Positions 4,662-63,848 of a stretch of DNA of 64,000 bases are shown here, in pieces. Both the position numbers and the translations under genes were made by a program. The stretch comes from Macrosoma leucophasiata. Its lineage: Eukaryota > Arthropoda > Insecta > Lepidoptera > Hedylidae. The stretch is from NCBI GenBank assembly GCA_036365455.1, contig JAWQUS010000030.1, positions 16,016,001 to 16,080,000 of the forward strand, read 5' to 3'. Every line of letters starts with the position of its first letter. Within the stretch, counting starts at the first letter, position 1. Below the pieces are notes generated by a model. The model worked only from the letters and a program-made list of their open reading frames with translations, did not search any database and had not been told where the DNA came from.

Positions 4662-5292
4662 CCTCCGCGTCCTCCGTCTCCGGCCCCCGACACCGCGCGA
4701 GCTCCCCTACCTGGTCCTATGCGCCCGACTAACGGTTCATCGGCGCAGCTCGCGTCCGATCCAATGCAGAACACCAGTCGGTCGACGTTCCGCTATGCGT
4801 GCCGCTGACTGCTATCTCCGTTGATGACGGGAGATTGTATGACACCAGCAATAAAAATGACGATGAATGGCACACTGTAAAATCTAAAACAATGCAACGG
4901 CGTAATCGTCATCGCGCCGTTATTACTGGCAAAGTAACACTGATAGCGACTTACAAACCGTTGAACGAGTGCGAAAAATTCACGGTTGTTTTTTCAAGCC
5001 CGAAACAACAGCGGAGTCATTAATAACGTACATGACGAAAAATAATCCCGGCGGCGCTTACCATACAGACAAATTAAAACTCACGCACAACTATTATTCA
5101 TCCTTTGCAATCACCGTACCTCGCAGCCAGTTCGAGTTTTTTATGTCGGCTGAGAATTGGCCCCCGGGTACTGAGATCAGCGAGTGGTTTCGACGCAGCG
5201 GCGGACCCGCGAAAGGCGCGTCCACCCAGTTGGAGTGTCGCAGACGCGGCGGTAGGCACTTCGCTCACCAGCCCGGCAACCCCGGTGCCTAG
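4662..5292 (+). pseudogene. LINE ORF1 remnant (gag-like, nucleic-acid-binding)
   Basis: The frame beginning Pro-rich at 4662 runs into a TGA near 4808. It continues in another frame from 4799 (motif DEWHTVKSK) and again from about 4969 (motif KPETTAESLITYM, later SSFAITVP and ENWPPG). This order resembles the C-terminal half of ORF1 proteins of Jockey-type elements, where a degenerate RNA-binding fold is followed by a 'xWPxG' tail. At least two frameshifts separate the three pieces. The N-terminal part, including any PHD or CCHC finger, is missing, which is consistent with 5' truncation. Confidence 0.65.
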
Positions 5293-5389
5293 CCAGCCGA
5301 CATCACAGCTCACCGTACCGGCGGTGCACAGAGTGCACACCACGTCACCTCCGCGTACGCATCAAGTATCACGCTCCCGAGCCGTGTGT

Positions 5390-8300
5390 AACAAAAACCA
5401 ACTAACAGTTTGCCATCTGAATATTGGAAGCCTAGGAAATAAGACAAAACACTTAGAAGTGCTATTGACGAAAGAGTTACTGTGTGACATATTAATATTG
5501 ACAGAACATTGGCTAAAAAGTCACGAAATAATATCAGTAACTCTGAATAATTTTAATATGTTATCTAATTATTGTAGGGAAAACATTGCGCATGGTGGAA
5601 GTTGCTATGTTCGAACTGGGATCAAAGCAATCAATAGGCAAGATTACTGTGACCTTTCTAAGGAGCAGATTTTTGACGTGTGCGCCGTGCAGCTCGTTAT
5701 ACACAATATCCTAGTTGTATGTATTTACCACTCCAACCTGACAGATAACGGTGAGTTTTTAAAATTATTCGAAAACCTTTTAATAAAAATCTGTAATGAG
5801 GGCTCCCGTGCTGTTATAATGGGCGATATTAATATCGATTTATTAAAAGATACAAGACATAAAAAAGTATTGTTAGATTTTTTATTTCGTCATAATTTTA
5901 TACAACAGATGAAATCCGCAACCCGCTGCGACGGGGAGAGCGCTACGTTACTTGACCATGTGTACACGAACTTCCCAGAGGAGTGGGCCGTGAGCGTCAG
6001 CGGAGTCGGGACGTATCTCAGCGACCACGACGCACAGCGCCTCGTTGTCTCGCGTTACATCACACTATTTCCACAGCACATTAAGAAACGTTGCATGTCA
6101 GCTGCAAATAAACGTAATTTCCTAAACGCTCTCGAATCGGTCGATTGGGGTTGGGTAACGGAACGATCGGGGAACGATAGTAAAGCACTCGCCGACGCTA
6201 TCATATCCAGAATAGTTCATAACTTCAACATCCAATTCCCAATTAGGTATCAACCGTTTATTGCTCATCAAAAAACATGGGTCGACGACGACGTGCGTAA
6301 TTGAAAAAATCTTATATTTAATATCTTACAAATAAAACGCGTTTTCCCGGGTAACTGCGAACTCAATAATCTAGGAGAATTGTATTCCCTAAAATACGAC
6401 TCTTTAATGAAACTCAAACGAACACAGTTCTATACCGAACTCATCCGCAACCACCCGAATAAGATGAAGTGTATGTGGAATGTAGTTAATGTTGAACTCG
6501 GGCGGAAAAACTGTGAAAGACTTGACTACACCGATTTGGTGCGCGACCCAAGCGGAGTACCTTTCAGCTTAAAGTAGCGGCTAGTGATAGCGATGAATGT
6601 CGAGTTCACAACCGCCGCTCTTAGGAGCCCCAACGGCTGACGTCAATCGTGCGTGCTTCACCCTCGCCGCGGACCAAGTTGCGTCCGATGTCTCCATGCG
6701 TCTAAAACTGTTCTCTGCTGACGAGGTAATAACGATAGTTGATAAATATATAGCTTCGAAAAATAGCACGGACTTGTATGATATTTCAACAAACCTAGTG
6801 AAGTTGATAGCGAAAGCGCTTGTGAATGTCATAGCCCACCTTTTCAATACATGCATACGGGAGGGTGTATATCCGACACCTCTGAAAAGAGTTAAAATAT
6901 CTCCCCTCTATAAGGGAAAAGGTGACAAAACTAATATGAAATCGTACCGGCCGATAGCATTGGTCCCCGCTCTCAGCAAAATTTTCGAAGTAGGTCTAAA
7001 TAAAAGGTTATTGACATTCATCTGCGAACGCAATATTATATCTGACAGGCAATACGCGTATAGGGCCGGGCGCGCCACTACAGATTTAGTGCGGGAGGTG
7101 GTGTGGAGTGTGCTGAGCGCGCGAGAGTCTGGCTTCTGCGTGGCAATGCTGTGCTGCGACCTCTCGCGTGCTTTCGACAACGCTGACCACTATCTCATTG
7201 GTAGCAAATTAAGTATTTACGGGATTCGCGGCCCAGCTCTTTCTTTGTTGACTTCCTTTATGTCAGAATGGACCCAGACTGTAATTGGCGATAAAGGACG
7301 TATAAGATCTTCGGAAGTGGAAAATCACATGGGAGTTCCACAGGTCTCATGCATTTCAAACACGTTGTTCAGTCTTCTTTTAAATGATTTACCGGAAACC
7401 ATGGACAATGCAGAGATCTACATGTACGCAGACGACGTGGTGGCTATCGTCTCCGCGCTCACAGACCGTGAGTTAGAAGAAAATTTAAATTCAGTCTTTC
7501 AGAAGCTCGAGCAATGGTTCCGATCAAACGGGCTAGCACTAAACAGAGATAAAACCTGCGTTATACCTTTTAGATTGAATAGTCATTCACCACCACATTA
7601 TAACGTCATCGCTGGGGATACCGCACTACAAGTTGTGAAATGCACTAAACTGCTCGGTATCTATATCGATAGCGGCCTCACTTGGGACACGCACATCAAC
7701 GAACTGTGCTCAAAGTTAAGCCGCACATGTTTCGCGCTGCGCCGCCTGGCCTGCACCACGGCTCGCAACGTGGTAAAACAATGTTACTACGCAACGGTCC
7801 ACAGCACCCTCACCTACGGTGTGGAGTTGTGGGCACGAGCTGCAGACATTGATAGAGTGTTTTCCATGCAAAAACGAGCGATCCGCGCTATAGCAGGGGC
7901 ACGCGAGGGCGAGTCATGCAGAGACCTATTCAGAGAGCTTAACATCATGCCACTCCCGTGCGAGCTAATTTTTCAAATGGCTATGTTTACCCACGAAAAC
8001 ATTGAAAAGTTTGAGTTACGTGGTATCAATTCATCATTACTCATGCTCCGCAGTAATAAGCTTGCTCATCTACTGGCTACGCCGGATCATAAGCCTCGCA
8101 AATCGGAGAGGTCCGTGTACATAATGGGCCCTTCAGTGTATAACAAGCTGCCGGATGCAATAAAGAACGGTGCAAACTCCACCATACTTTCAAAAATAGA
8201 TTACGTAGGTGGCTTTAGGCTGGAGCGCCCTCTGCGCTTTAGGCTGGAGCTCCCTCTGCGCTCGCCGATTGCCCGGTGAAGTAGACTAGTGCCGTCTCGA

Positions 8301-16659: not shown

Positions 16660-16900
16660 ATATATAAAATCAATTGCTGTTCGTTAGTCTCGCTCGCTTG
16701 GCTTATTTTGGTTTTGAATGATTTTTGGAAGTCCAGGGAAGGATTGAAAGGTCAGAAAATATGAAGAAATTGAAGGGAAATAGTAAAAAGCACAATTTTA
16801 TTTTCTCATACAAATAGTCTGTATCTATCAAAACCTTTGATACATTATTTTATTCTGAGGCAATACGAAGTTTGCCGGGTCATAATATACGATGCCGAGA
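16660..16900 (-). repeat. Dispersed repeat F, minus copy
   Basis: The reverse complement matches 22660-22915: a start like GACCCGGCAAACTTCGTATTG, the middle GGACTTCCAAAAATCATTCA, and the end CTAACGAACAGCAATTGATTT. It is probably a LINE 3' region or non-autonomous derivative; no coding capacity remains. Confidence 0.6.
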
Positions 16901-19751: not shown

Positions 19752-20548
19752 CACGAGACGCTGGGCGTCGGGACGTTGGGCGTCGGGACGTTGGGTGACG
19801 AGACGCTGGGCGTCGGGACGTTCGGTGACGGGACGCTGGGCGTCGGGACGTTTGGCGTCGAGACGCTGGGCGTCGGGACGCTGGGCGTCGGGACGCTGGG
19901 CGTCGGGACGCTGGGCGTCGGGACGCTGGGCGTCGGGACGCTGGGCGTCGGGACGTTGGGCGTCGGGACGTTGGGTGACGGGACGCTGGGCGTCGGGACG
20001 CTGGGCGTCGGGACGCTGGGCGTTGGGACGCTGGGCGTCGGGACGCTACGCTGGGCGTCGGGACGCTGGGCGTCGGGACGCTGGGCGTCGGGACGTTGGG
20101 CGTCGGGACGTTGGGTGACGGGACGCTGGGCGTCGGGACGCTGGGCGTCGGGACGCTGGGCGTCGGGACGCTGGGCGTCGGGACGCTGGGCGTCGGGACG
20201 CTGGGCGTCGGGACGCTGGGCGTCGGGACGCTTGGCGTCGGGACGCTGGGCGTCGGGACGCTGGGCGTCGGGACGCTGGGCGTCGGGACTCTGGGCGTCG
20301 GGGCGCTGGGCGTCGGGGCGTTGGGTGTCGGGGCGCTGGGCGTCGGGACACTGAGCGTCGGGACGCTGGGCGTCGGGACGCTGGGCGTCGGGACCCTGGG
20401 CGTCGGGACGCTGGGCGTCGGGACGCTGGGCGTCGGGACGCTGGGCGTCGGGACGCTGGGCGTCGGGACGCTGGGCGTCGGGACGCTGGGCGTCGGGACG
20501 CTGGGCGTCGGGACGCTGGGCGTCGATACGCTAGGCGTCGGGTTTTCG
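19752..20548. repeat. G-rich minisatellite, 15-bp unit CTGGGCGTCGGGACG
   Basis: About 50 units in tandem with scattered single-base variants and one partial slip near 20046. The unit has three CpGs and two GGG runs in an otherwise AT-rich region. Because the period is a multiple of three and no frame contains a stop, all six frames stay open, giving long but meaningless repeats such as LGVGT, WASGR and VPTPS. Not treated as a gene. Confidence 0.95.
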
Positions 20549-22287: not shown

Positions 22288-23264
22288 TCTCATATCATGT
22301 ATTGTGTAAGTATGTACTCAATATTATTTTAAAACCACTGTATAGTTAAAATTATTTTAATGTGATAGTAGTAGGTTTTGAAACATTAATTTTGAAAAAT
22401 ATTTTTTGAATGTAGTTTCATCGCAACTAAAATAAAAATATTATTTCTTTTTGAGGCAAACTATTCCATGCTGTTTGAATTACATAAATATAATAAACCA
22501 AAACATTCTCTGGCTAAGCCCAGAACACGCTTATTATTTTATTAGGTAATTCAAACAGTCCATTTATTTGTAAAACAACAAACAAACTTGAGAAATATTT
22601 ACAGATACGGGGTTTTGAATAACTTTTAACATTTTTCATGACTTATTTATGATATACTAGCTGACTCGGCAAACTTCGTATTGCCTGAGATTGAAATAAT
22701 GCGTCAAAGGTTTGATAGATACGAACTATTTGTATGGGAAAATGAAATTGTGGTTTTTACTGTTTCCCTTTAATTTCTTCATATTTTCTTACCTTTTAAA
22801 CCTTCCCTGGACTTCCAAAAATCATTCAAAACCAAAATTAGCCAAATCGGTTCAGCCGTTCTCGAGTTTTAGCGAGACTAACGAACAGCAATTGATTTAT
22901 ATATATTATATATAGATTATTCCACTTGAATTTGATTTTTACACGTACCTGCATGGAATAAAATTATATTTTAATTAATGTCATATCATCTTGTATCCTT
23001 TATCTCTGATCCTATAAAGGTCCTTGAATATTTTAAGACCTGCTTTACTTAGATTTTGAACACAACATTAACCTTAAACTCGTTTAAAAAATTGGTGAAA
23101 TCTAAACTTTGAAGGGACACCATTACGATTCAGAATGAATAGCTATCATTATTTCTATTATTTGGTCGATAGTAACAAATGACTCTACTGTACACCAACT
23201 TTTGTCATAATTTTGTGGGGTAACAGGGGTAAATAAAGTAGTTTCGTAAACCTTTCTTTCGAAA
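22288..23264. other. AT-rich DNA containing a copy of repeat F (22660-22915, +)
   Basis: 22660-22915 reads TAGCTGACTCGGCAAACTTC to CTAACGAACAGCAATTGATT and is the plus-strand match of 16660-16900. The rest shows no gene or other repeat. Confidence 0.55.
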
Positions 23265-32754: not shown

Positions 32755-33069
32755 GTCCGGACCTCGATCAGTGACGGTTGCATCGTCTCGTTTTAATCGA
32801 GTGTGTCATAATTGAAATCGTCTATTCGTGATTTAGGAGGAGGGTTTGTTTACCGGGGTGAGGGGAGCGGTGTGGTGTGGCAGGCGGCGGGCGGTGGCGG
32901 TCAGCTGGGTGCGCGCGCCGCGGTCGATAGGGCCGCGGCGGCGACAGCGGAGACGGCGGCGGTGCGCGCAAGCGCGGCCTTATCGACGCCGCCGCACACG
33001 GGCCGCCGCCGCCGCGAGCCGCACACGCGATGCATGCGGGAACTTAGCGGAACCACGCGCGCGGGCCTC
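32755..33069 (+). promoter_or_regulatory. Putative promoter and GC-rich 5' leader of the CDK5 activator
   Basis: Base composition switches abruptly from AT-rich to very GC- and CpG-rich. An initiator-like TCAGT lies at 32768-32772. The frame is open upstream of the chosen ATG (from an in-frame ATG at 32812), but that extension is low-complexity Gly/Ala/Arg and matches nothing in p35 proteins, so I treat it as leader. The promoter position is inference. Confidence 0.3.
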
Positions 33070-33741
33070 ATGGGCACCGTGCTGAGCTTCAGCCCGCGCG
33101 AGCGGCGCCCGCCCGCAGCCGCCCCGCCGCCTGATAGAGCCGCGCTCGCTTACTCCTACGAGCGCCTCAACAACGCAAAGAATCGAGAGAACCGCGAAGC
33201 GCCCCGGGACGAGCGCCGCGCCACCCTCGACGATGCCGCCAAAATCATATCCGAGAAGACCGCTCTCGAGAAGAACCTCAAAAAGCACTCGCTGTTCATC
33301 AATGCGCTGTCGTGGAAGAGGTTCTCGACAGCGAACAACAACAAAAAGAAGCTAGAATGCAAGAGCAAGAGCGTTGCGACGTTCCGGGCGCCACTGACGG
33401 ATAACGCTCCGTTGGACAGGAACAAGAATGTGAGCGTTGGAGGTGCGATATACGCGCGGGCGCCGGTGGCGCCGCTGCCGCCGCCGCCGGCTGAGCTGAC
33501 ACGGAGCAACGCACTGAACAACAATGTGTGCTACGCGGAGAAGCTGCCGACGTCGGCGGTGGGTGCGGTGGGTACGGGCGCGCCGCGTAAGACGGTGATC
33601 CAGGCGTCCACATCGGAGCTGCTCAAGTGCCTGGGCATGTTCCTGCATGCGCGCTGCCACCGTCTACGGGACTTCCAGGCGGGCGACGCGGTCATGTGGC
33701 TGCGGACGGTCGACCGGTCGCTGCTGCTGCAAGGCTGGCAG
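33070..33741 (+). CDS. Cdk5alpha: CDK5 activator 1 (p35), first coding exon
   Basis: p35 binds and activates CDK5 in post-mitotic neurons and is tethered to membranes by N-myristoylation. The exon encodes 224 residues. MGTVLS at 1-6 offers Gly2 for myristoylation and matches the family start; the ATG has G at +4. A basic stretch [14 protein letters not shown] (71-84) matches the family's KRHS...PWKR. A low-complexity linker follows, with VATF at 102-105 at the position of the vertebrate calpain site. The conserved domain begins [16 protein letters not shown] (174-189) and continues to [11 protein letters not shown] (214-224). The exon ends at CAG|GTAAAC in phase 0, within the activation domain, so at least one more exon is required. 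None was recognised downstream in the window. The reading frame is intact and CpG-rich. Confidence 0.93.
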
Positions 33742-33747
33742 GTAAAC
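33742..33747 (+). other. 5' splice donor of the Cdk5alpha exon
   Basis: CAG|GTAAAC. The open frame runs only to a TAG at 33787-33789, and the 15 codons after GWQ do not resemble p35, so the splice is preferred over read-through. Confidence 0.8.
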
Positions 33748-35440
33748 ACCAACCGCTCTGTTTGCGCATCTTTGTCTATATACTTGTAGACGGTTAGGGT
33801 CAGTGCGCAACCTATTTTCCTCGATTAATCAACGTGTTGGATTACGTCATTCGTTCATGTGTCTATGTACTTATTATTATGTTTATCCTCTATGGCATTA
33901 GTATTGTTTAGATTCGCTACTAATTATGCGACGTCATCCGTTGATGCAGGAAACCAAGAAATTAAACTTTGCTTAGTATTTCTGGAATTTGTGTCCCACA
34001 GTGTAGCACTGTAGATGTTAGTTGATTTATACATTTTAACGTCCTTATATAAAGTGATTTATTTTCAATTAAAATTATTAATTTTCTTTTGATATTGCAA
34101 AATGAGATGTAAGTAGCTGAATTTACTGACCTAATTATCATCTCTGCATACATGAAAATGATTTTTTGATGTTTATTAATGTTTGTAATTTGTTATGTTA
34201 TTAACTTTTATCGATCGAAAAAACTTTTCCTAGTGCCCAAAGGCCGAAATTCGTTCGCAATACATGATATATACGCAATACGCAATATACCTAATCCTGT
34301 ATTCTATTACAAATATTTGTCTCTCCTTTGTTTTGTGAAACCATTTCACCACAGGCTGGTACACAGATATTTTGATATTAACAATAAGAACATAGTTTCA
34401 TTTAACGTAAGTCATTTGTTTATAATTCTTTATTGATTTGCCTCAATCAATAAACTTATAATTTCAGAACGGAAAATCGAAATTGATTTGCCTTAATCAA
34501 TGAACATAAACAATCAAAAATTAAAATCAAGTGTATGATCGTTAATTTCGTCTTTCGCCCTATACATAATTCCATTCGAATAATTTCATAGATTAAAAAT
34601 TTTATGCTTTTAAACCACAGTAAGTGACAACCGAATTACATTATAATTATCATACAGGATTTAGTTATCTATACAGAATTGTCTGTAAAGGCTTCACATA
34701 AGCCCGCCCTGTATCAAGAGGATGATAATGAGCTTACGAGTAGCTATAAATTATCTAGTCTGTGGTTACCGTTCAATAATATAGTGAAATACAGTTATGG
34801 CTTCCGTTGATATGTACACCCAGGGACCGAAATCAATCCAATATAGCTTCTATTACTATTGAATTAGGTGCCCGTGTGATCAAGCGACCAGTTTCTTGAT
34901 AGTACCTATTAAACACGCAGCCTGTTTGATTGTGTGCGCGAAATACCTGCGCACCCAACCGAACGTAGCTGCACACTACTGTTCTTCTTATTATGTAAAT
35001 ATTGTCACGCACACACCTATACCTATAGGATCTGGGATCTGCCTGTTGTTAAATTGACAGATTGTGTGAAAAAAACGACTGCACTCAATTTCTCGATTAA
35101 AAATACAAAAAATGTGCCGTGAAAACTCTTTTTCTTGTAGAGATAGAAATTTTCATAGATTTATATATAGTCCTCAAGGAAACTTCGGGTGTTTATAAGA
35201 CTACAAATCACTAAAACCATAGTATTTTTCTTCAATGCTGACAGAATAATCCCTGAAGTTCTGTCCAGACATCTATCCCAAGTTTTCAGACATTCCGGCT
35301 GTCGCCAACTGTCGAATGGAGTAGAGCGAAAGTTGCACCGCCTATTTTTTTATATCGCATATGTCTCATATGTCCCTCCACAACGCCCTAAGCCAAGGCA
35401 CGGATCCCCATGGGTCACCCTTAGGCAGTTGCGCTAACTT
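33748..35440 (+). other. Putative intron sequence, nothing else recognised
   Basis: AT-rich with no repeats of the window's main families up to about 35250. 35255-35440 is GC-richer and may be the upstream part of the retroelement fragment that follows. No exon encoding the rest of p35 was seen. Confidence 0.4.
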
Positions 35441-37954: not shown

Positions 37955-38100
37955 TATTATTTCGCATTAACACAGGAAAGATTTGACAAATCGGGCAGGA
38001 CTTCAGTAGCTCAATTGGAAGAGCGGCTGGACTAGATTCCCAGTAGGCCGCGAGTTCGAGTCTCGCCTGAAGTCAAATTTTTCTTTCCATTTTTCTTTAA
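37955..38100 (+). repeat. tRNA-like repeat T, copy 1
   Basis: The core 37999-38074 has an ACTTCAG/CTGAAGT acceptor pairing, D arm GCTCAATTGGAAGAGC and T arm GCGAGTTCGAGTCTCGC. The anticodon stem is imperfect and no normal anticodon can be assigned. The flanks are shared with copies at 41.6, 50.07 and 50.38 kb, so the mobile unit is longer than the tRNA-like core. Confidence 0.65.
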
Positions 38101-41616: not shown

Positions 41617-41845
41617 TATTTTATTTTTAAAGAAAAATGGAAAGAAAAATTTGACTTCAGGCGAGACTCGAACTCGCGACCTACTGGGAATCTAGTCCAG
41701 CCGCTCTTCCAATTGAGCTACTGAAGCCGATTTGTCAAATCTTTCCAAAAAAAAAAATTGACTTTTTCTTTCCATTTTTCTTTAAAAATAAAATATATTT
41801 CACAAGCATGTGTTAATGCGAAATAATATAAAAAAAAACAAAAAA
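41617..41845 (-). repeat. tRNA-like repeat T, copy 2, core inverted within its own flanks
   Basis: The minus-strand tRNA-like core (41653-41728) is bordered on both sides by the same flank (TTTCTTTCCATTTTTCTTT), in opposite orientations at 41620-41655 and 41763-41800. The usual downstream tail (GTGTTAATGCGAAATAATAT) follows on the plus strand. The core has therefore flipped relative to its 3' flank. Confidence 0.7.
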
Positions 41846-41963
41846 ATATTAGTCACGTCAAATTTCTTACATACAGTTAGTTTAAGTACAAAAACTTTAG
41901 ATTTCTATAAGGATACGAAGTTACAAGTAAAATATGTGAATTTTATAATTTTTTATTTTTAAC

Positions 41964-42068
41964 TAGCTGACCCGGCAAACTTCGTATTGCCTCACAATTA
42001 AGTAATGTGTCAAAGGTTCGATACATACATATTTTCATACCTATATATTCAAAATCAAAATTTGCCTA
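41964..42068 (+). repeat. Repeat F 5' fragment abutting the satellite
   Basis: It reads CTAGCTGACCCGGCAAACTTC and then dissolves into the ATCGAT satellite. Confidence 0.5.
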
Positions 42069-45000
42069 ATATCGATTTTAATATCAATTATAATATCGAT
42101 TTTAATATATAATATCGATTAAAATATCGATTTTAAAATCGATTTTGATGTATTATATCGATTTAAATATCGATTTTCTCAAATATCGATTACTTAAAAT
42201 ATCGATTTTAATATCGATTATCTAAAATATCGATTTAAAAATATCGATTTAAAAATCGATTTTGATATATTATATCGATTTAAATATCGATTATCTCAAA
42301 TATCGATTATATAAATATCGATTATTTAAAATATCGATTTTAATATCGATTATCTCAAATATCGATTACTTAAAATATCGATTTTAATATCGATTATAAT
42401 ACTATAGATTTTAATGTATAATATGGATTATCTCAAATATCAATAATTTAAAATATCAATTTTAATATCGATTTTCTCAAATATCGATTTTTTTAAAATA
42501 TCGATTTTAATATCGATTATCTCAAATATCGATTAAAATATCGATTATCTCAAATATCGATTATTTAAAATATCGATTATCTCAAATATCGATTATTTAA
42601 AATATCGATTTTAGGATCGATTTTCTCAAATATCGATTATTTTAAATATCGATTTTAATATCGATTATCTCAAATATCGATTATTTAAAATATCGATTAT
42701 AATACTATCGAATTTAATGTATAATATCGATTATCTCAAATATCGATTTTTTAAAATATCGATTTTAATATCGATTATTTAAAATATCGATTTCAATATC
42801 AATTATACAATCGATTTAAATGAATAATTTCGATTATTTCAAAGATCTACTACTATCGATACTATCGATTGTTAAAAATAGCGATTATTTCAAATATCGA
42901 TTACTTAAAATATCGATCACTTAAAATATTGATTATAATATCGATTATTTCAAATATCGAATATTTCATATATCGATTATCTCAAATATCGATTAAAATA
43001 TCAATTTTAACATCTATTATTTAAAAAATCGATCAAAATATCGATGTTAATATCGATTTTAATGAATAATATCGATGACCTCAAATATTGATTACTTAAA
43101 ATGTCAATTAAAATATCGATTTTAATATAAAATATCGATTTAAATATCGATTTTCTCAAATATCGATTTCTTAAAATATCGATTTTAATATCGATTATAA
43201 TACTATCGATTTTAATGTATAATATCGATTATCTCAAATATCGATTTTTTAAAATATCGATTTTAATATTGATTTTCTCAAATATCGATTACTTAAAATA
43301 ATAGATTTTTTAAATAATAGATATTAAAATTGATATTTTAATCGATATTTGAGATAATCGATATATGAAATATTCGATATTTGAAAAAATCGATATAATT
43401 TAATTAAAATCGATAGTATAATCGAGATAATCGATATTAAAATCGATATTTAAAATAATCGATATTTGAGATAATCGATACTTAAATCGATATTATATAT
43501 TAAAATCGATATTTTAAATAATCGATATTTAAGGTAATCGATATATAAATCGATATTATATATTAAAATCGATATTTTAAATAATCGATATTAAAATCGA
43601 TATTTTAAATAATCGATATTTGAGATAATCGATATTTAAATCGATATTTTATATTAAAATCGATATTTTAATTGACATTTTAAATAATCAATATTTGAGG
43701 TAATCTATATTCTTCATTAAAATCGATATTATGATCGATATTTTGATCGATTTTTTAAATAATAGATTAATATCTATTATTTAAAAAATCGAATATGATA
43801 TTTTAATCGATATTTGAGATAATCGATATATGAAATATTCGATATTTGAAATAATCGATATTATAATCAATATTTTAAATGATCGATATTTTAAATAATC
43901 GATATTTGAAATAATCGCTATTTTTAACAATCAATAGTATCGAGAGTAGTAGATCTTTGAAATAATCGAAATTATTCATTAAAATCGATAGTATAATCGA
44001 TATTGAAATCGATATTTTAAATAATCGATATTAAAATCGATATTTTAAATAATCGATATTTGAGATAACCAATATTTAAATCGATATTTTATATTAAAAT
44101 CGATATTTTAATTGACATTTTAAGTAATCAATATTTGAGGTCATCGATATTATTCATTAAAATCGATATTAACATCGATATTTTGATCGATTTTTTAAAT
44201 AATAGATGTTAAAATTGATATTTTAATCGATATTTGAGATAATCGATATATGAAATATTCGATATTTGAAATAATCGATATTATAATCAATATTTTAAGT
44301 GATCGATATTTTAAGTAATCGATATTTGAAATAATCGCTATTTTTAACAATCGATAGTATCGATAGTAGTAGATCTTTGAAATAATCGAAATTATTCATT
44401 TAAATCGATAGTATAATCGATATTGAAATCGATATTTTAAATAATCGATATTAAAATCGATATTTTAAATAATCGATATTAAAATCGATATTTTAAATAA
44501 TCGATATTTGAGATAATCGATATTATACATTAAAATCGATAGTATTATAATCGATATTTAAAATAATCGATATTTGAGAAAATCGATACTAAAATCGATA
44601 TTTTAAATAATCAATATTTGAGGTCATCGATATTATTCATTAAAATCGATATTAACATCGATATTTTGATCGATTTTTTAAATAATAGATGTTAAAATTG
44701 ATATTTTAATCGATATTTGAGATAATCGATATATGAAATATTCGATATTTGAAATAATCAATATTATAATCAATATTTTAAATGATCGATATTTTAAATA
44801 ATCGATATTTGAAATAATCGCTATTTTTAACAATCGATAGTATCGATAGTAGTAGATCTTTGAAATAATCGAAATTATTCATTTAAATCGATAGTATAAT
44901 CGATATTGAAATCGATATTTTAAATAATCGATATTAAAATCGATATTTTAAATAATCGATATTTGAGATAATCGATATTTAAATCGATATAATATATCAA

Positions 45001-46177
45001 AATCGTTTTTAAAATCGATATTTTAATCGATATTTGAAATAATCGATATAATAATCAATATTTTAAATAATCGATATTTGAGATAATCGATATTAAAATC
45101 GATATTTAAAATAATCAATATTTGAGAAAATCGATACTAAAATCGATATTTTAAATAATCGATATTTGAGATAATCGATATTAAAATCGATATTTTAAAT
45201 AAACAATATTTGAGAAAATCGATATTTTAAATAATCGATATTTGAGATGATCGATATTTTATATTAAAATCGATATTTTAATTGACATTTTAAATAATCA
45301 ATATTTGAGGTCATCGATATTATTCATTAAAATCGATATTTACATCGATATTTTGATCGATTTTTTAAATAATAGATGTTAAAATTGATATTTTAATCGA
45401 TATTTGAGATAATCGATATATGAAATATTCGATATTTGAAATAATCGATATTATAATCAATATTTTAAATGATCGATATTTTAAATAATCGATATTTGAA
45501 ATAATCGCTATTTTTAACAATCGATAGTATCGATAGTAGTAGATCTTTGAAATAATCTAAATTATTCATTTAAATCGATAGTATAATCGATATTGAAATC
45601 GATATTTTAAATAATCGATATTAAAATCGATATTTTAAATAATCGATATTTGAGATAATCGATATTTAAATCGATATAATATATCAAAATCGATTTTAAA
45701 ATCGATATTTAAAACGATATTTGAAATAATCGATATTTGAGAATATGATTATTTAAATCGATATAATATATCAAAATCGATTTTAAAATCGATATTTTAA
45801 TCGATATTTGAAATAATCGATATTAAAATCGATATTTAAAAAAAATCGATATTTGAAAAAATCGATATTTAAATCGATATAATATATCAAAATCGATTTT
45901 AAAATCGATATTTTAATCGATATTATATATTAAAATCGATATTTTGATCGATTTTTTAAATAATAGATATTAAAATTGTTATTTTAATCGATATTTGAGA
46001 TAATCGATCTTTAAATCGATATCATATATCAAAATCGATATTTTAATCGATATTTGCGATAATCGATATTAAAATCGGTATTTAAAAAAAATCGATATTT
46101 GAGAAGATTGATACTAAAATCGATATTTTAAATAATCGATATTTGAGATAATCGATATTAAAATTTTAATCGATAAT
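42069..46177. repeat. ATCGAT satellite with inverted arms and higher-order repeats
   Basis: About 4.1 kb made almost wholly of 16-20 bp words containing ATCGAT, such as ATTTAAAATATCGATT and ATCTCAAATATCGATT. Up to about 43310 the words read in one orientation; after it they read as the reverse complement. 42945-43140 is almost exactly the inverse of 44096-44290. A landmark block (AGTAGTAGATCTTTGAAATA) occurs inverted at about 42841-42885 and direct at about 43946, 44366, 44850 and 45536, so the right arm holds four higher-order units of 420 to 690 bp. No coding capacity. Confidence 0.95.
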
Positions 46178-46619: not shown

Positions 46620-46774
46620 GATTTCGTGTTTACCAATTTCGTGTACTTTTGTGCAATACCATTGTGACCATTGTGACAGCCTCTTCTATAGTGTGTTTAT
46701 TCTTTTAATCTTTCGTTTTTAGAGTGTACATATTGTGTAAGTTATTTTAGTTCACATTTTTCTAGTTTAGTTTT

Positions 46775-49648
46775 ATGCCGGGTGGCGGTGGTGCGGTCGC
46801 GGGTGGTTCATCCGTACTTGTACCTAATCGAGTGACTTGCTCTCTCTGTTCTCAGGCGCGTTATTTTCAAAATGAACGTGGCTTGAAAATTCATTATGGC
46901 AGGGTGCACAAGGGACATATTATTAATGAATTACCACATGACGGAAACGGCGCTAACCTTCCTGACCCCAATAATAACAAAAGTCTATCAGAGACTTTGT
47001 CTCATTTAAAGAAAACAGTTCCAGTACTGAAAAGGGTGCCTCGCGGTGCTAGGACAACCGCAGCACAGGCCTTGTCCAAGTGTCTCCATGCCGTAAGCAC
47101 ACAAAATTCTTTTAGCGCCTGGGAACAGCTGCTTACTTTCCCTTACAGAGTTTTACATTTCGATAAAATTTTAGCTGCCAAAAAATCTATAACATCTTTA
47201 ATAAAACAAAATTGTACGTCCTTGATACCCATTCCTGACTCAAAATTATTTTGTAAACAAAATAGACATGTTACATACGTAGAATCAAAATTAAGGGACG
47301 GTGACATTAAAGGAGCGGCACGAGTGCTTTTTAGTACCGATACAATCGCTCCTGAATCCCCAAGCACCCTTGCTGCTCTAGAGAGCAAGCACCCAAGCCC
47401 TGCGGATGGCCTTATTTTCCCTGAACCTCCTGAACCCAGTGAATCACTATCTGTGACTGCCAACCAGGTGGCCACGGCGGTGAGCTCTTTCCGCAGCGGT
47501 TCTGCCGGCGGCCTCGATGCCTTGTCGCCGCAACACCTGAAAGACCTGCTGAGCCCTGGCGCCGGGGTGGCTGGTGAGTCGCTGCTGAGAGAGCTCACGG
47601 CTGTGATCAATTTGATGCTGGGCGGCGGTGTGAATGATGCTGTCATTGAAGCATTATACGGTGCCAACCTTTGTGCTCTAATTAAGCGCGATGGCGGCAT
47701 CCGTCCCATTGCCGTTGGCACCACATACAGACGTACGGCAGCCAAAATTTGTTGCCAATTCTACACGGACACCTTATCAAAAAAATTTCAACCTTACCAA
47801 TTGGGCTTCGGCTCAAAGGGAGGTTGTGAGGCTGCCGTACATGCCCTCTCTAGTTACCTAGACAGTGGGGAAGGTGAGGTCATCCTGAAGGTGGATCTGA
47901 AAAACGCATTCAACGCCGTTAACAGAGATGTCCTGCTGGCTGAGGCTAAGAAAGAAACCCCCAAAATTTTTAGTTTTCTTTGGCAGTGTTATAGACACCA
48001 TTCTAAATTAATGTACAAGGACCATTGTTTACTTTCAGCTGTCGGCTGCCAGCAGGGTGATCCTCTTGGGCCAGTCATTTTCAGCCTAGCTATTCACCCC
48101 ATCATTCGACAATTAAATTCCAAATTTAACGTTTGGTATTTAGACGACGGGACCCTAGGAGGCAGCGTAGATTCAGTCCTGGCAGACTTCACTTTCTTGA
48201 AGGAAAAATTCAACTCAATTGGCCTAGATTTAAATACAGAAAAATGTGAAATATATTTCCCAGAACGGACGGACAGACTAACATCTCTCTCAAAATTTTC
48301 CGAAATTGCCCCTAATATTAAAGTTATGGAAAAAAACTCCTTGCGCCTCCTGGGCTCCCCAATTTTTGACGATTCTTTTCCTTCCTTCGTAGAAGAAAAG
48401 ATCCAAAATTATTTTGAAATTTCAAAGAAACTGTCCGAAATTAATGTTCATTCTGCTTATACGCTGTTTCGATACTGTTCTTTCGGCCCTAAATTTATAT
48501 ACTATCTCCGATGTTCCCCTTTATGGAAACATACGGAACTACTAATAAAGATTGACTCAATCATCAGAACAACGATGACGACCATTTTCAACACGACTCT
48601 GGACGACCGCGCGTGGGATCAGGCCACTCTTCCCATCCGACTGGGTGGCCTAGGCGTCCGCAAAATTTCTAGTATAAGTCTACCGGCGTTCTTGTCCTCG
48701 GTCCACGGCACTAATAATTTAACTAGGAAAATTTTATCAACCACACTGGTGAATTTTGAAGTGCCGTGCTTGACCGACGCCTTGAGCGCCTGGAAAACGA
48801 CTTGCCCAAATATGGACCTGCCGGGTAACCTCTCTTCACAGCGACAGTGGGACGCACCGCTCTGCAGCTTGGTACGGAAAAATCTTATAGATACGTCAAC
48901 CAACGCTGCGAAGCGAGCCCGTCTTCGCGCGCTTGGAGAGTGGGAATCCGGTCTCTGGTTACAGGCTTTGCCATCACCCAGCATCGGGACAATGATGGAT
49001 GACATCACCTTCCGGCTCGCTACTTGCCTCCGCCTAGGCACATCTTGCTGCGCTCCGCATCGCTGCCCCTGTGGTGAAGCTGTCGACCGCCTGGGGCACC
49101 ATGGTCTCTCCTGTGGTAGAAGTGCCGGCAGATTCACCAGGCACGCCCAATTAAATGACATTCTGCGCCGAGCCCTTTCCACCGCCGGCGTGCCAGCCAT
49201 ATTAGAACCCAACGGACTGGCACGTGACGATGGAAGGAGACCGGACGGTATGTCATTGATGCCCTGGAAGATGGGTAGGCCTTTGGTGTGGGACGCAACT
49301 TGCGTTGACACCTTAGCGCCATCCCATCTTCCAAGCACGGCGGGCTCCGCTGGCACTGCTGCTGCAACTGCGGAGACCCTGAAACAGCGCAAATATAGTA
49401 CCCTTCCAGAGGACTATATATTTGTGCCTTTCGGGGTCGAAACTCTTGGTCCATGGGGCCCCAGTGCTCGGCTCTTATTCAAAGAGATCGCGAAACGGCT
49501 GGTCGACACTTCCCGTGACCAGAGGGCTGGCCAATTTTTAGGTCAAAGAATCAGCATTGCCATCCAACGAGGTAATGCTGCCAGCCTTCTGGGTACCATA
49601 ACACAGGAAGGCAGTGATGCGGAATTTTTAGATGTATGTTGTTTTTAG
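46775..49648 (+). CDS. Retroelement polyprotein: C2H2 finger, reverse transcriptase, restriction-like endonuclease
   Basis: 957 codons with no stop or frameshift. A C2H2 finger lies near the N-terminus (C22, C25, H40, H45; CX2CX14HX4H), likely for target DNA binding. RT motifs: VDLKNAFN (Asp374, motif A), QQGDPLGP (426-433, motif B), YLDDG (455-459, motif C), GLDLNTEKC (483-491), LLGSP (525-529). A CPCG...HH...C knuckle (764-780) and a GRFTRH segment follow, then RRPDG (822-825) and VWDAT (Asp840), the PD-(10-20)-D layout of restriction-like endonucleases in R2-type elements. That architecture supports target-primed retrotransposition. The YLDDG box is unlike the F/YADD of R2; it resembles uncharacterised RT proteins common in cnidarian and arthropod genomes, so I do not assign R2. 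Start ATG chosen because it precedes the finger. All key residues appear intact. Confidence 0.88.
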   Translation: MPGGGGAVAGGSSVLVPNRVTCSLCSQARYFQNERGLKIHYGRVHKGHIINELPHDGNGANLPDPNNNKSLSETLSHLKKTVPVLKRVPRGARTTAAQALSKCLHAVSTQNSFSAWEQLLTFPYRVLHFDKILAAKKSITSLIKQNCTSLIPIPDSKLFCKQNRHVTYVESKLRDGDIKGAARVLFSTDTIAPESPSTLAALESKHPSPADGLIFPEPPEPSESLSVTANQVATAVSSFRSGSAGGLDALSPQHLKDLLSPGAGVAGESLLRELTAVINLMLGGGVNDAVIEALYGANLCALIKRDGGIRPIAVGTTYRRTAAKICCQFYTDTLSKKFQPYQLGFGSKGGCEAAVHALSSYLDSGEGEVILKVDLKNAFNAVNRDVLLAEAKKETPKIFSFLWQCYRHHSKLMYKDHCLLSAVGCQQGDPLGPVIFSLAIHPIIRQLNSKFNVWYLDDGTLGGSVDSVLADFTFLKEKFNSIGLDLNTEKCEIYFPERTDRLTSLSKFSEIAPNIKVMEKNSLRLLGSPIFDDSFPSFVEEKIQNYFEISKKLSEINVHSAYTLFRYCSFGPKFIYYLRCSPLWKHTELLIKIDSIIRTTMTTIFNTTLDDRAWDQATLPIRLGGLGVRKISSISLPAFLSSVHGTNNLTRKILSTTLVNFEVPCLTDALSAWKTTCPNMDLPGNLSSQRQWDAPLCSLVRKNLIDTSTNAAKRARLRALGEWESGLWLQALPSPSIGTMMDDITFRLATCLRLGTSCCAPHRCPCGEAVDRLGHHGLSCGRSAGRFTRHAQLNDILRRALSTAGVPAILEPNGLARDDGRRPDGMSLMPWKMGRPLVWDATCVDTLAPSHLPSTAGSAGTAAATAETLKQRKYSTLPEDYIFVPFGVETLGPWGPSARLLFKEIAKRLVDTSRDQRAGQFLGQRISIAIQRGNAASLLGTITQEGSDAEFLDVCCF

Positions 49649-50039: not shown

Positions 50040-50220
50040 GAACGCATTCGACAAATCGGGCAGGGCTTCAGTAGCTCAATTGGAAGAGCGGCTGGACTAG
50101 ATTCCCAGTAGGTCGCGAGTTCGAGCCTCGCCTGAAGTCAAATTTTTCTTTCCATTTTTCTTTAAAAATAAAATATATTTCACAAGCATGTGTTAATGCG
50201 AAATAATATAAAAAACAATT
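50040..50220 (+). repeat. tRNA-like repeat T, copy 3
   Basis: Core 50064-50139 (GGCTTCAGTAGCTCAATTGG to GCCTGAAGTC), then the conserved tail ending GCGAAATAATATAAAAAACA. Confidence 0.7.
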
Positions 50221-50339: not shown

Positions 50340-50530
50340 AGATGTGAAGGAAAGATTTGACAAATCGGGCAGGGCTTCAGTAGCTCAATTGGAAGAGCGG
50401 CTGGACTAGATTCCCAGTAGGTCGCGAGTTCGAGCCTCGCCTGAAGTCAAATTTTTCTTTCCATTTTTCTTTAAAAATAAAATATATTTCACAAGCATGT
50501 GTTAATGCGAAATAATATAAAAAACAATAT
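50340..50530 (+). repeat. tRNA-like repeat T, copy 4
   Basis: Core 50373-50448, nearly identical to copy 3 (309 bp upstream) over the core and about 80 bp of tail. The leader GATTTGACAAATCGGGCAGG is shared with copy 1. Confidence 0.7.
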
Positions 50531-62618: not shown

Positions 62619-63848
62619 TTCACTAATTTTACGAACCGGGTCGTGATGCGATATAGATATTGGGTAAAAACACTTTTTACCTTCATTCCGACGTTTCGAC
62701 TCGGTTGCACAAGCCGTGGTCGCGGACAGACTGTTGTAACAGCAAAATGTCAAATTGCGGGTGGCTTGATGTTCTTCTACCTACAAGTTGCGTGATTATT
62801 GTGGAGGCCGGCACACAACGCTCACTGTATCCGACGATAGGTCCGATGTTACATCGCGCGATCCTAAATTGTTTATGACCGGTGTCCAGGTCGGAGACAA
62901 TTTATATCCATCTTCACGATTGAAATTGTTTTTGTACTTATATATTTCAATCGCCGCTCGTATTATCCTGGGATAATAATAACGTTTAGTGGAGAGGACT
63001 CTTGGATTGTAAAGATTGATCCAATGATTAGTCACCGAGGTTAAAAGGTGTTCCGCGATCGCCGATTTTTGCATCTGTCGGTTTTTTAGGGCTGCGATGT
63101 GTTCTTTGATCCTTTCCTGGACGCTGCGTTTTGTCTGTCCAATGTACACCTTACCACAACTGCACTGTACTTTATACACCCCTGGATTCTGATACGTAAT
63201 CACGTCTTTCGGGCTGCGTAGATGTGTAGCTAATTTGGATAACGAAGTGTAGACAGTCTTAATCGAGTTCTTTCTCAACACCGTGCCTATTTTGTCTGTT
63301 ACCCCTTTCACATATGGTAAGAAAGCTAATTGTCGACTAACATCTGGACGCTTTTCCGTATTCGATTTTCGCAGCTGTCTTGGTGGCTTATATCCATTGC
63401 GTACAAGTACCTTCTTTACGTGTGATAGCTCAGATTCAATATGGTCAGAATCGCATAGGTTATAAGCTCTGTTCTCTAAGGAGGCTACCACAGAGTACAG
63501 GTGACGAGGGTGATGGTGGGATGACGCGTGCAGGTACCTATCAGTGTGTGTGGGTTTCCTGTAAACAGTGTGTACCAAGGAACGGTCTGTCTTCACCATC
63601 ACTTTGACATCCAGAAACATCGGACCTATCGTCGGATACAGTGAGCGTTGTGTGCCGGCCTCCACAATAATCACGCAACTTGTAGGTAGAAGAACATCAA
63701 GCCACCCGCAATTTGACATTTTGCTGTTACAACAGTCTGTCCGCGACCACGGCTTGTGCAACCGAGTCGAAACGTCGGAATAAAGGTAAAAAGTGTTTTT
63801 ACCCAATATCTATATCGCGTCACGACCCGGTTCGTAAAATTAGTGAAA
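62619..63848 (-). mobile_element. 5'-truncated Penelope-like element with inverted terminal repeats
   Basis: Arms 62619-62850 and 63616-63848 are about 232-bp inverted copies of the same non-coding repeat (CCGACGTTTCGACTCGG, CGCGGACAGACTGTTG). Penelope-like elements usually carry terminal repeats and often leave truncated copies with an inverted extra repeat, which this matches. The unique part between the arms encodes the C-terminal region of the protein on the minus strand. Confidence 0.88.
62866..63612 (-). pseudogene. Penelope-like element: RT C-terminus + GIY-YIG endonuclease
   Basis: The minus-strand frame is open right across both inverted arms. The genuine part begins FLDVKVMV (the RT end, with [12 protein letters not shown] and [11 protein letters not shown]) and continues to [20 protein letters not shown], the GIY-YIG-type core (here VYK...VYIGQT) with QERIKEH downstream, and ends near TPVINN. 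The catalytic RT motifs A to C are missing, so the copy cannot be autonomous. The residues predicted outside 62866-63612 come from the terminal repeats and are not original protein. No frameshift is seen in this segment, suggesting fairly recent arrival. Confidence 0.85.

Follow-up and report, generated by a model that had tools for sequence, protein, structure and literature searches.

The locus

The 64-kb window (the whole stretch of DNA analysed, 64,000 nucleotides) carries, of a Cdk5 activator gene (a conserved nerve-cell gene), the portion coding for the N-terminus and, downstream of it, a 4.11-kb array of ATCGAT words, together with copies of several kinds of dispersed repeat (Table 1). 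The gene is represented by an open reading frame at 32812-33789, which matches the Pfam CDK5_activator family with an E value of 1.2e-44. The best of the 120 relatives listed for this frame are lepidopteran, from Pararge aegeria and Euphydryas editha, each with 91% identity and covering 77% and 75% of it, respectively. In tblastn comparisons, six lepidopteran proteins align to the first exon with 83-91% identity. Five of the alignments start at 33034 (Pararge at 32995) and four end at 33741, directly after the residues GWQ (Pararge at 33744, Euphydryas at 33762). Four of the six relatives continue past GWQ for about 126 residues. When the part of the protein past GWQ, taken from eight lepidopteran relatives (125-130 residues), was compared with the window, nothing convincing was found among the 12 best matches (best E value, 1.2), and the 18-residue end of a beetle protein gave an unconvincing match (E value, 0.83). 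Because a GT donor follows GWQ and the conserved remainder of the protein is absent from the window, the array most likely lies within an intron of at least 30 kb, 8.3 kb past the exon, on the sense strand; a break in the gene or a misassembly at this place would invalidate the placement. Such a position would make transcription of the array likely. The gene models of Pararge aegeria (P0001) and Euphydryas editha (P0002) lack the conserved C-terminal part after GWQ, and the latter appears to run into the intron past 33741; an intron of this length may mislead gene annotation.

The array (42068-46177; 4,110 bp; 18.2% GC) holds 207 of the 226 ATCGAT words in the window, a density of roughly one in 20 bp. 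The dominant distances between words are 12, 16 and 19 bp, the first two being the commonest, in keeping with an earlier note on this DNA that had described such a word every 16-20 bp. Autocorrelation revealed lags of 420, 483 and 687 bp besides a repeat of 44 bp, and TRF reported periods of 12, 16, 28, 44 and 420 bp, among others. The array contains no closed reading frame of 120 or more amino acids, and it consists, as satellites do, of non-coding head-to-tail tandem repeats. No second ATCGAT array occurs elsewhere in the window. Most of the CG dinucleotides in the array (207 of 230) fall within ATCGAT, and the observed/expected CpG ratio is 6.9, compared with 1.1 in the rest of the window. 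Words altered at the CG comprise 15 ATCAAT and 10 ATTGAT, against 12 with other substitutions, the pattern that CpG deamination would give, although copies have these changes in common by descent.

An array phrase and a 16-16-12 spaced pattern had no match in viral contigs, and the phrase had none in a genome contig collection of viral and prokaryotic DNA; both collections are uninformative on insects. A literature search for an ATCGAT satellite in Lepidoptera returned no publication on that combination. Searched as text, the array words gave no satellite DNA paper by title among the matches listed; one match, by title, concerns microsatellite markers in a silkmoth (PMC4625160). A single assembly underlies the array, its uniqueness and its likely transcription.

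At its left edge the array adjoins a short interspersed element copy with an internal deletion, which is 86.6% identical over 67 bp to a copy at 22656 and 88.9% identical over 63 columns to a copy at 16882(-). The second piece of the element (42047-42070, 24 bases with 3 mismatches) scored 33, compared with a maximum of 29 in 500 shuffles. Between the element tail and the array start there is a weak likeness, with a score reached by 3% of 1,000 shuffles, which is only suggestive of the tail as a seed of the array. The right flank of the array does not match the element above shuffles (score of 24 against a shuffle maximum of 33). The head of the element had no match in viral contigs, which are uninformative on insects, and retrieved one unrelated title from the literature.

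Other repeats in the window are of several kinds. The four tRNA-Ser(AGA)-like genes, two of which reach the cut-off of the Rfam tRNA model, are 94-98% similar, and the similarity extends past the tRNA into the flanks; they may represent a repeat that arose from a tRNA or else a tRNA family that has dispersed. Reverse-transcriptase reading frames at 46766-49648, which starts 589 bp right of the array, and at 5078-8279 are probably non-LTR; an Exo_endo_phos match at 5078-6304 lies slightly under the Pfam cut-off. A further frame, 62796-63809(-), has relatives that carry reverse transcriptase and PF26215 domains, with a GIY-YIG domain in 2 of the 120 listed, and belongs to a family that we take to be Penelope-like; its 54%-identity match labelled Escherichia coli (P0169) is probably contamination. 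A GC-rich tandem array at 19757-20542 consists of 52 copies (91% match) of a 15-bp unit, GACGCTGGGCGTCGG, each with a small inverted repeat (GACGC...GCGTC).

Table 1. Coordinates of the gene, array, landmark and repeat features in the window
Feature	Position	Strand	Basis or remark
First coding exon of Cdk5 activator (p35-like) gene, 236 residues	33034-33741	+	Pfam, tblastn; donor CAG/GTAAAC
Putative intron of Cdk5 activator gene, 30,259 bp or more, running past window end	33742-64000	+	Protein remainder absent
tRNA-Ser(AGA)-like genes, 77 bases	37999-38075, 41652-41728(-), 50064-50140, 50373-50449		ARAGORN
Short interspersed element copy, internally deleted, starts ACTAGCTGACCCGGC	41962-42070	+	Adjoins left edge of array
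Left arm of array, words TATCGATT, 1.23 kb	42068-43300	-	Word orientation, alignment
Landmark L, inverted, 340 bp	42750-43089	-	Landmark alignment
338-bp arm, reverse complement of 44072-44409	42810-43147	-	Alignment; longest helix of predicted fold
Flip junction; right arm starts within truncated landmark copy	43270-43340		Sequence, alignment
Right arm of array, words AATCGATA, 2.88 kb	43301-46177	+	Word orientation, alignment
Landmark R0, truncated at flip	43304-43396	+	91/93 identical to R2
Landmark R1, 360 bp, 20-bp insertion at 43768-43787	43690-44049	+	Landmark alignment
Partner of 338-bp arm	44072-44409	+	Alignment, predicted fold
Landmark R2, closest to L (2 differences/340)	44130-44469	+	Landmark alignment
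Landmark R3	44613-44952	+	Landmark alignment
Landmark R4	45300-45639	+	Landmark alignment
Second truncated landmark copy	45940-46010	+	68/71 identical to R2

The array changes orientation once

Flanking bases give most of the ATCGAT words a direction. All 57 words of the form TATCGATT lie left of about 43300, and all 117 of the form AATCGATA lie right of it; the remaining 33 of the 207 are flanked by different bases and were left without a direction. With none of the 174 oriented words out of place, the array contains a single flip at about 43300, close to the 43310 previously proposed. A local palindrome was rejected as the cause of the flip, the best short one there having 16-bp arms and a 47-bp loop. 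A balanced inversion was also considered by turning the left arm back, which did not convincingly restore the missing half of landmark R0, the copy cut by the flip. Because the ATCGATATT ends are generic, a simple balanced inversion could not be demonstrated in this way.

When the left arm is inverted and aligned locally to the right arm, 42068-43300 and 43887-45194 pair collinearly over about 1.2 kb; this best alignment has 1,108 identical positions, 93 mismatches and 139 gap positions. Within it lies the longest exact inverted match, of 338 bp; the longest direct match inside the right arm is 165 bp. When words were shuffled within the arms, the longest inverted match stayed below 100 bp in 199 of 200 shuffles and reached at least 100 bp, where the shuffle grid ended, in 1 of 200. 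The observation made in the earlier note is confirmed, in sharper form. Its description of a giant inverted repeat needs correcting in that the arms are unequal in length and the best-matching inverted block is centred near 43610 rather than on the flip. The note had further given 42945-43140 as almost exactly the inverse of 44096-44290. An exact inverse does exist, at 44079-44274, 16-17 bp away from the proposed partner; global alignment of the two intervals originally paired gave 179 identities, 0 mismatches and 33 gap positions.

In the two longest ungapped blocks between the arms, there are 0 differences in the 338 bases and 18 in the other 246, a contrast for which a Fisher test is biased, as the 338-bp run was picked as the longest. 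The difference-free 338 bases could fit a gene-conversion tract or a more recently spread landmark. Further along the right arm, the 100-bp segment 44501-44600 agrees with the left arm in 96 positions, compared with at most 67 elsewhere in the right arm (both ungapped).

A recently spread or homogenised landmark family

The array contains a 340-bp landmark, present as four full direct copies, one inverted copy and two truncated direct copies. Anchor positions reproduce the arrangement given in the earlier note, one inverted and four direct occurrences spaced 420, 483 and 687 bp apart. The pairwise differences are 2 for L-R2, 3 for R2-R3, 3 for R3-R4, 4 for R2-R4, 5 for R3-L and 6 for R4-L, and R1 stands apart with 14-17 differences from the other full copies (95.0-95.9% identity). 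Two alignment columns are parsimony-informative, and both unite L with R2, which on its own is weak evidence. Judged from these columns together with the 338 identical bases and the 44501-44600 stretch, the inverted landmark L is the nearest relative of R2.

The earlier note had taken the near-identity of the arms, within an otherwise diverged satellite, as a sign of recent homogenisation or inverted duplication. This is only partly borne out: L and R2 are 99.4% identical, but the direct copies R2, R3 and R4 are also near-identical to one another (98.8-99.1%). As L and R2-R4 are 98.2-99.4% alike in either direction, the near-identity of the arms is mostly that of the landmark family, and because R2-R4 are so alike in direct orientation too, the family as a whole has spread recently or been homogenised. 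The spacers between landmarks are diverged and vary in length. A date of about 1 million generations for the L-R2 split, obtained from 2 differences in 340 bp at a substitution rate of 2.9e-9, is not relied on, as it ignores gene conversion.

The 20-bp insertion in R1 has its exact reverse complement at 43307 and at 45953, in both truncated landmark copies, indicating that small-scale inverted switches also occurred. The insertion creates a small perfect palindrome of 21 bp (43747-43792), which did not rise above a control of 10 word shuffles; such shuffles retain the long words that contain the palindrome.

Predicted folding of array RNA

Folding of the array with ViennaRNA gave -1818.5 kcal/mol for the + strand and -1804.6 for the - strand. 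In the predicted + strand fold, 1,161 pairs join the two arms, the left arm forms none with itself and the longer right arm forms 575; the longest helix is 338 bp. With the left arm turned round, the energy was -1042.5 kcal/mol and the longest helix 21. Two word shuffles that kept the flip gave -1465.5 and -1498.7 kcal/mol, with helices of 35 and 58, and two base shuffles of the array gave -668.2 and -654.5 kcal/mol. These controls suggest that the word flip as such provides most of the pairing and that the landmark adds the long perfect stem. Unspliced RNA of the gene could fold at the array into a very long double-stranded hairpin, and the kilobase-scale hairpin suggested earlier as a possibility gains support from both the alignment and the controlled fold. 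The earlier note had also proposed the hairpin as a possible source of siRNA or piRNA; it was made without the putative intronic sense position, which would make transcription likely.

Origin of the array and alternative readings

On balance, the array is probably a young, locally grown, AT-rich complex satellite in the Cdk5 activator intron that was inverted once and is carried passively in the pre-mRNA. Growth would have proceeded by slippage and repeated duplication of the 340-bp landmark, producing irregular higher-order blocks of 420-687 bp; block duplication would account for the high likeness of L and R2-R4, the lower likeness of R1 and the diverged, length-variable spacers. The left 1.2 kb would have come to lie inverted once, through recombination of copies in opposite orientation or through template switching on a folded-back strand; for the large flip, inversion, inverted duplication and a template switch are all candidate routes. 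The pre-mRNA would carry the hairpin wherever the gene is expressed, and splicing would remove it, mostly without consequence.

The same predicted hairpin could have a function. We regard as improbable an intronic hairpin-RNA locus at which Dicer-2 cuts the pre-mRNA duplex into siRNAs of about 21 nt directed against satellite-like RNAs or the host gene. The perfect stem and the arm-to-arm pairs are predicted on the sense strand of the gene, and in Drosophila Dcr-2 turns the inverted repeats known as hpRNAs into siRNAs of 21-22 nt (PMC10317233), yet the intron may be spliced out before export. There is likewise an outside chance that the array is a double-stranded RNA switch, with the Cdk5 activator pre-mRNA hairpin edited by ADAR or diced, tuning the gene or supplying siRNAs; if true, the macro-dyad satellite would then occur beyond Tribolium and away from centromeres. 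A role at the DNA level is also doubtful, namely that the array serves as a boundary or sink through binding of a factor resembling DREF or Cut to its clustered ATCGAT or CGATA words. The motif WATCGATW, which we take to be a degenerate form of the DREF site, is fitted by 184 of the 207 words, and Cut-type factors are presumably candidate binders of ATCGAT and CGATA words; the confinement of 207 of 230 CG dinucleotides to ATCGAT points the same way, although a core this preserved can also stem from recent amplification. Clusters of CGATA are bound by BEAF in Drosophila, where the DREF site is TATCGATA (PMC2605929). The perfect TATCGATA is found only four times in the array, the same number as in the rest of the window. 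To our knowledge, moreover, BEAF is restricted to flies, which counts against such a platform.

Tandem arrays are often misassembled, and the flip might be an assembly join or a fold-back read artefact. This is very unlikely: a fold-back read yields a near-perfect palindrome centred on the flip, whereas the best block here lies about 310 bp off, the outer parts of the arms differ by many substitutions and indels, the short palindrome at the flip is the modest one described above, and, at 4.1 kb, the array would fit within usual long reads if the assembly was built from such reads. Most improbable of all is a transposon of the fold-back type whose terminal inverted repeats are filled with satellite. 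The arms are opposed at both ends and the left edge adjoins a transposable-element copy, but a target-site duplication is unconvincing (near the edges there are only AT-rich matches, 4-8 bases long, of which the longer lie inside the array), and a second copy is absent from the window.

Comparison with known systems

The passively carried satellite that we favour belongs to Lepidoptera, an order with holocentric chromosomes. Lepidopteran satellites frequently form small euchromatic clusters (PMC8042265). Lepidopteran microsatellites have been linked to RTE ends by Tay et al. 2010 (PMC2887409), and the array likewise lies beside a transposable-element copy in a lepidopteran genome. In the RTE families, however, the repeats that follow the RTE stop codon are mostly of di- to pentanucleotide units (PMC2887409), whereas the repeat here is a complex satellite and its neighbour is a short element that is at most a candidate RTE. 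The TCAST families of Tribolium castaneum provide a precedent for satellite DNA within introns, as euchromatic repeats (PMC5844308). They occur preferentially as single dispersed repeats, and the passages considered describe no inverted macro-structure (PMC5844308), in contrast to the inverted array.

Drosophila hpRNAs share with the array an inverted repeat with a perfect duplex, here a predicted 338-bp helix (PMC10317233). The array differs in its apparent intronic position and in being built of satellite words; membership of the hpRNA class, for which it is at most a candidate, requires Dicer-2-dependent siRNAs of 21-22 nt (PMC10317233).

The closest likeness in architecture is to TmSat1 and TmSat2 of Tribolium madens, in which subarrays switch orientation, mostly two per array, with the potential for kilobase-scale hairpins (PMC13081366). 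As in those macro-dyads, the array consists of two opposed subarrays, here with no oriented word misplaced, and the degenerate subunit at TmSat1 inversion sites (PMC13081366) has a counterpart in R0, which is truncated at the flip. According to the 2026 T. madens paper, macro-dyad symmetries are documented only in Tribolium (PMC13081366). There, thousands of arrays lie in a multi-megabase, probably (peri)centromeric setting, which this one 4.1-kb, apparently intronic array does not share; the repeated element is about 110 bp long with conserved inversion sites, compared with words 12-19 bp apart in this one array (PMC13081366). Subarrays there tend genome-wide towards equal length (PMC13081366); those of the single array here measure 1.23 and 2.88 kb. 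Because setting, size and monomer differ, the array resembles the Tribolium macro-dyad satellites without being one of them. It would bring the macro-dyad architecture down to 4 kb, in a lepidopteran and apparently within an intron. As it can be spanned by single long reads and its transcription is expected, the hairpin and small-RNA output of satellite dyads becomes testable at one locus.
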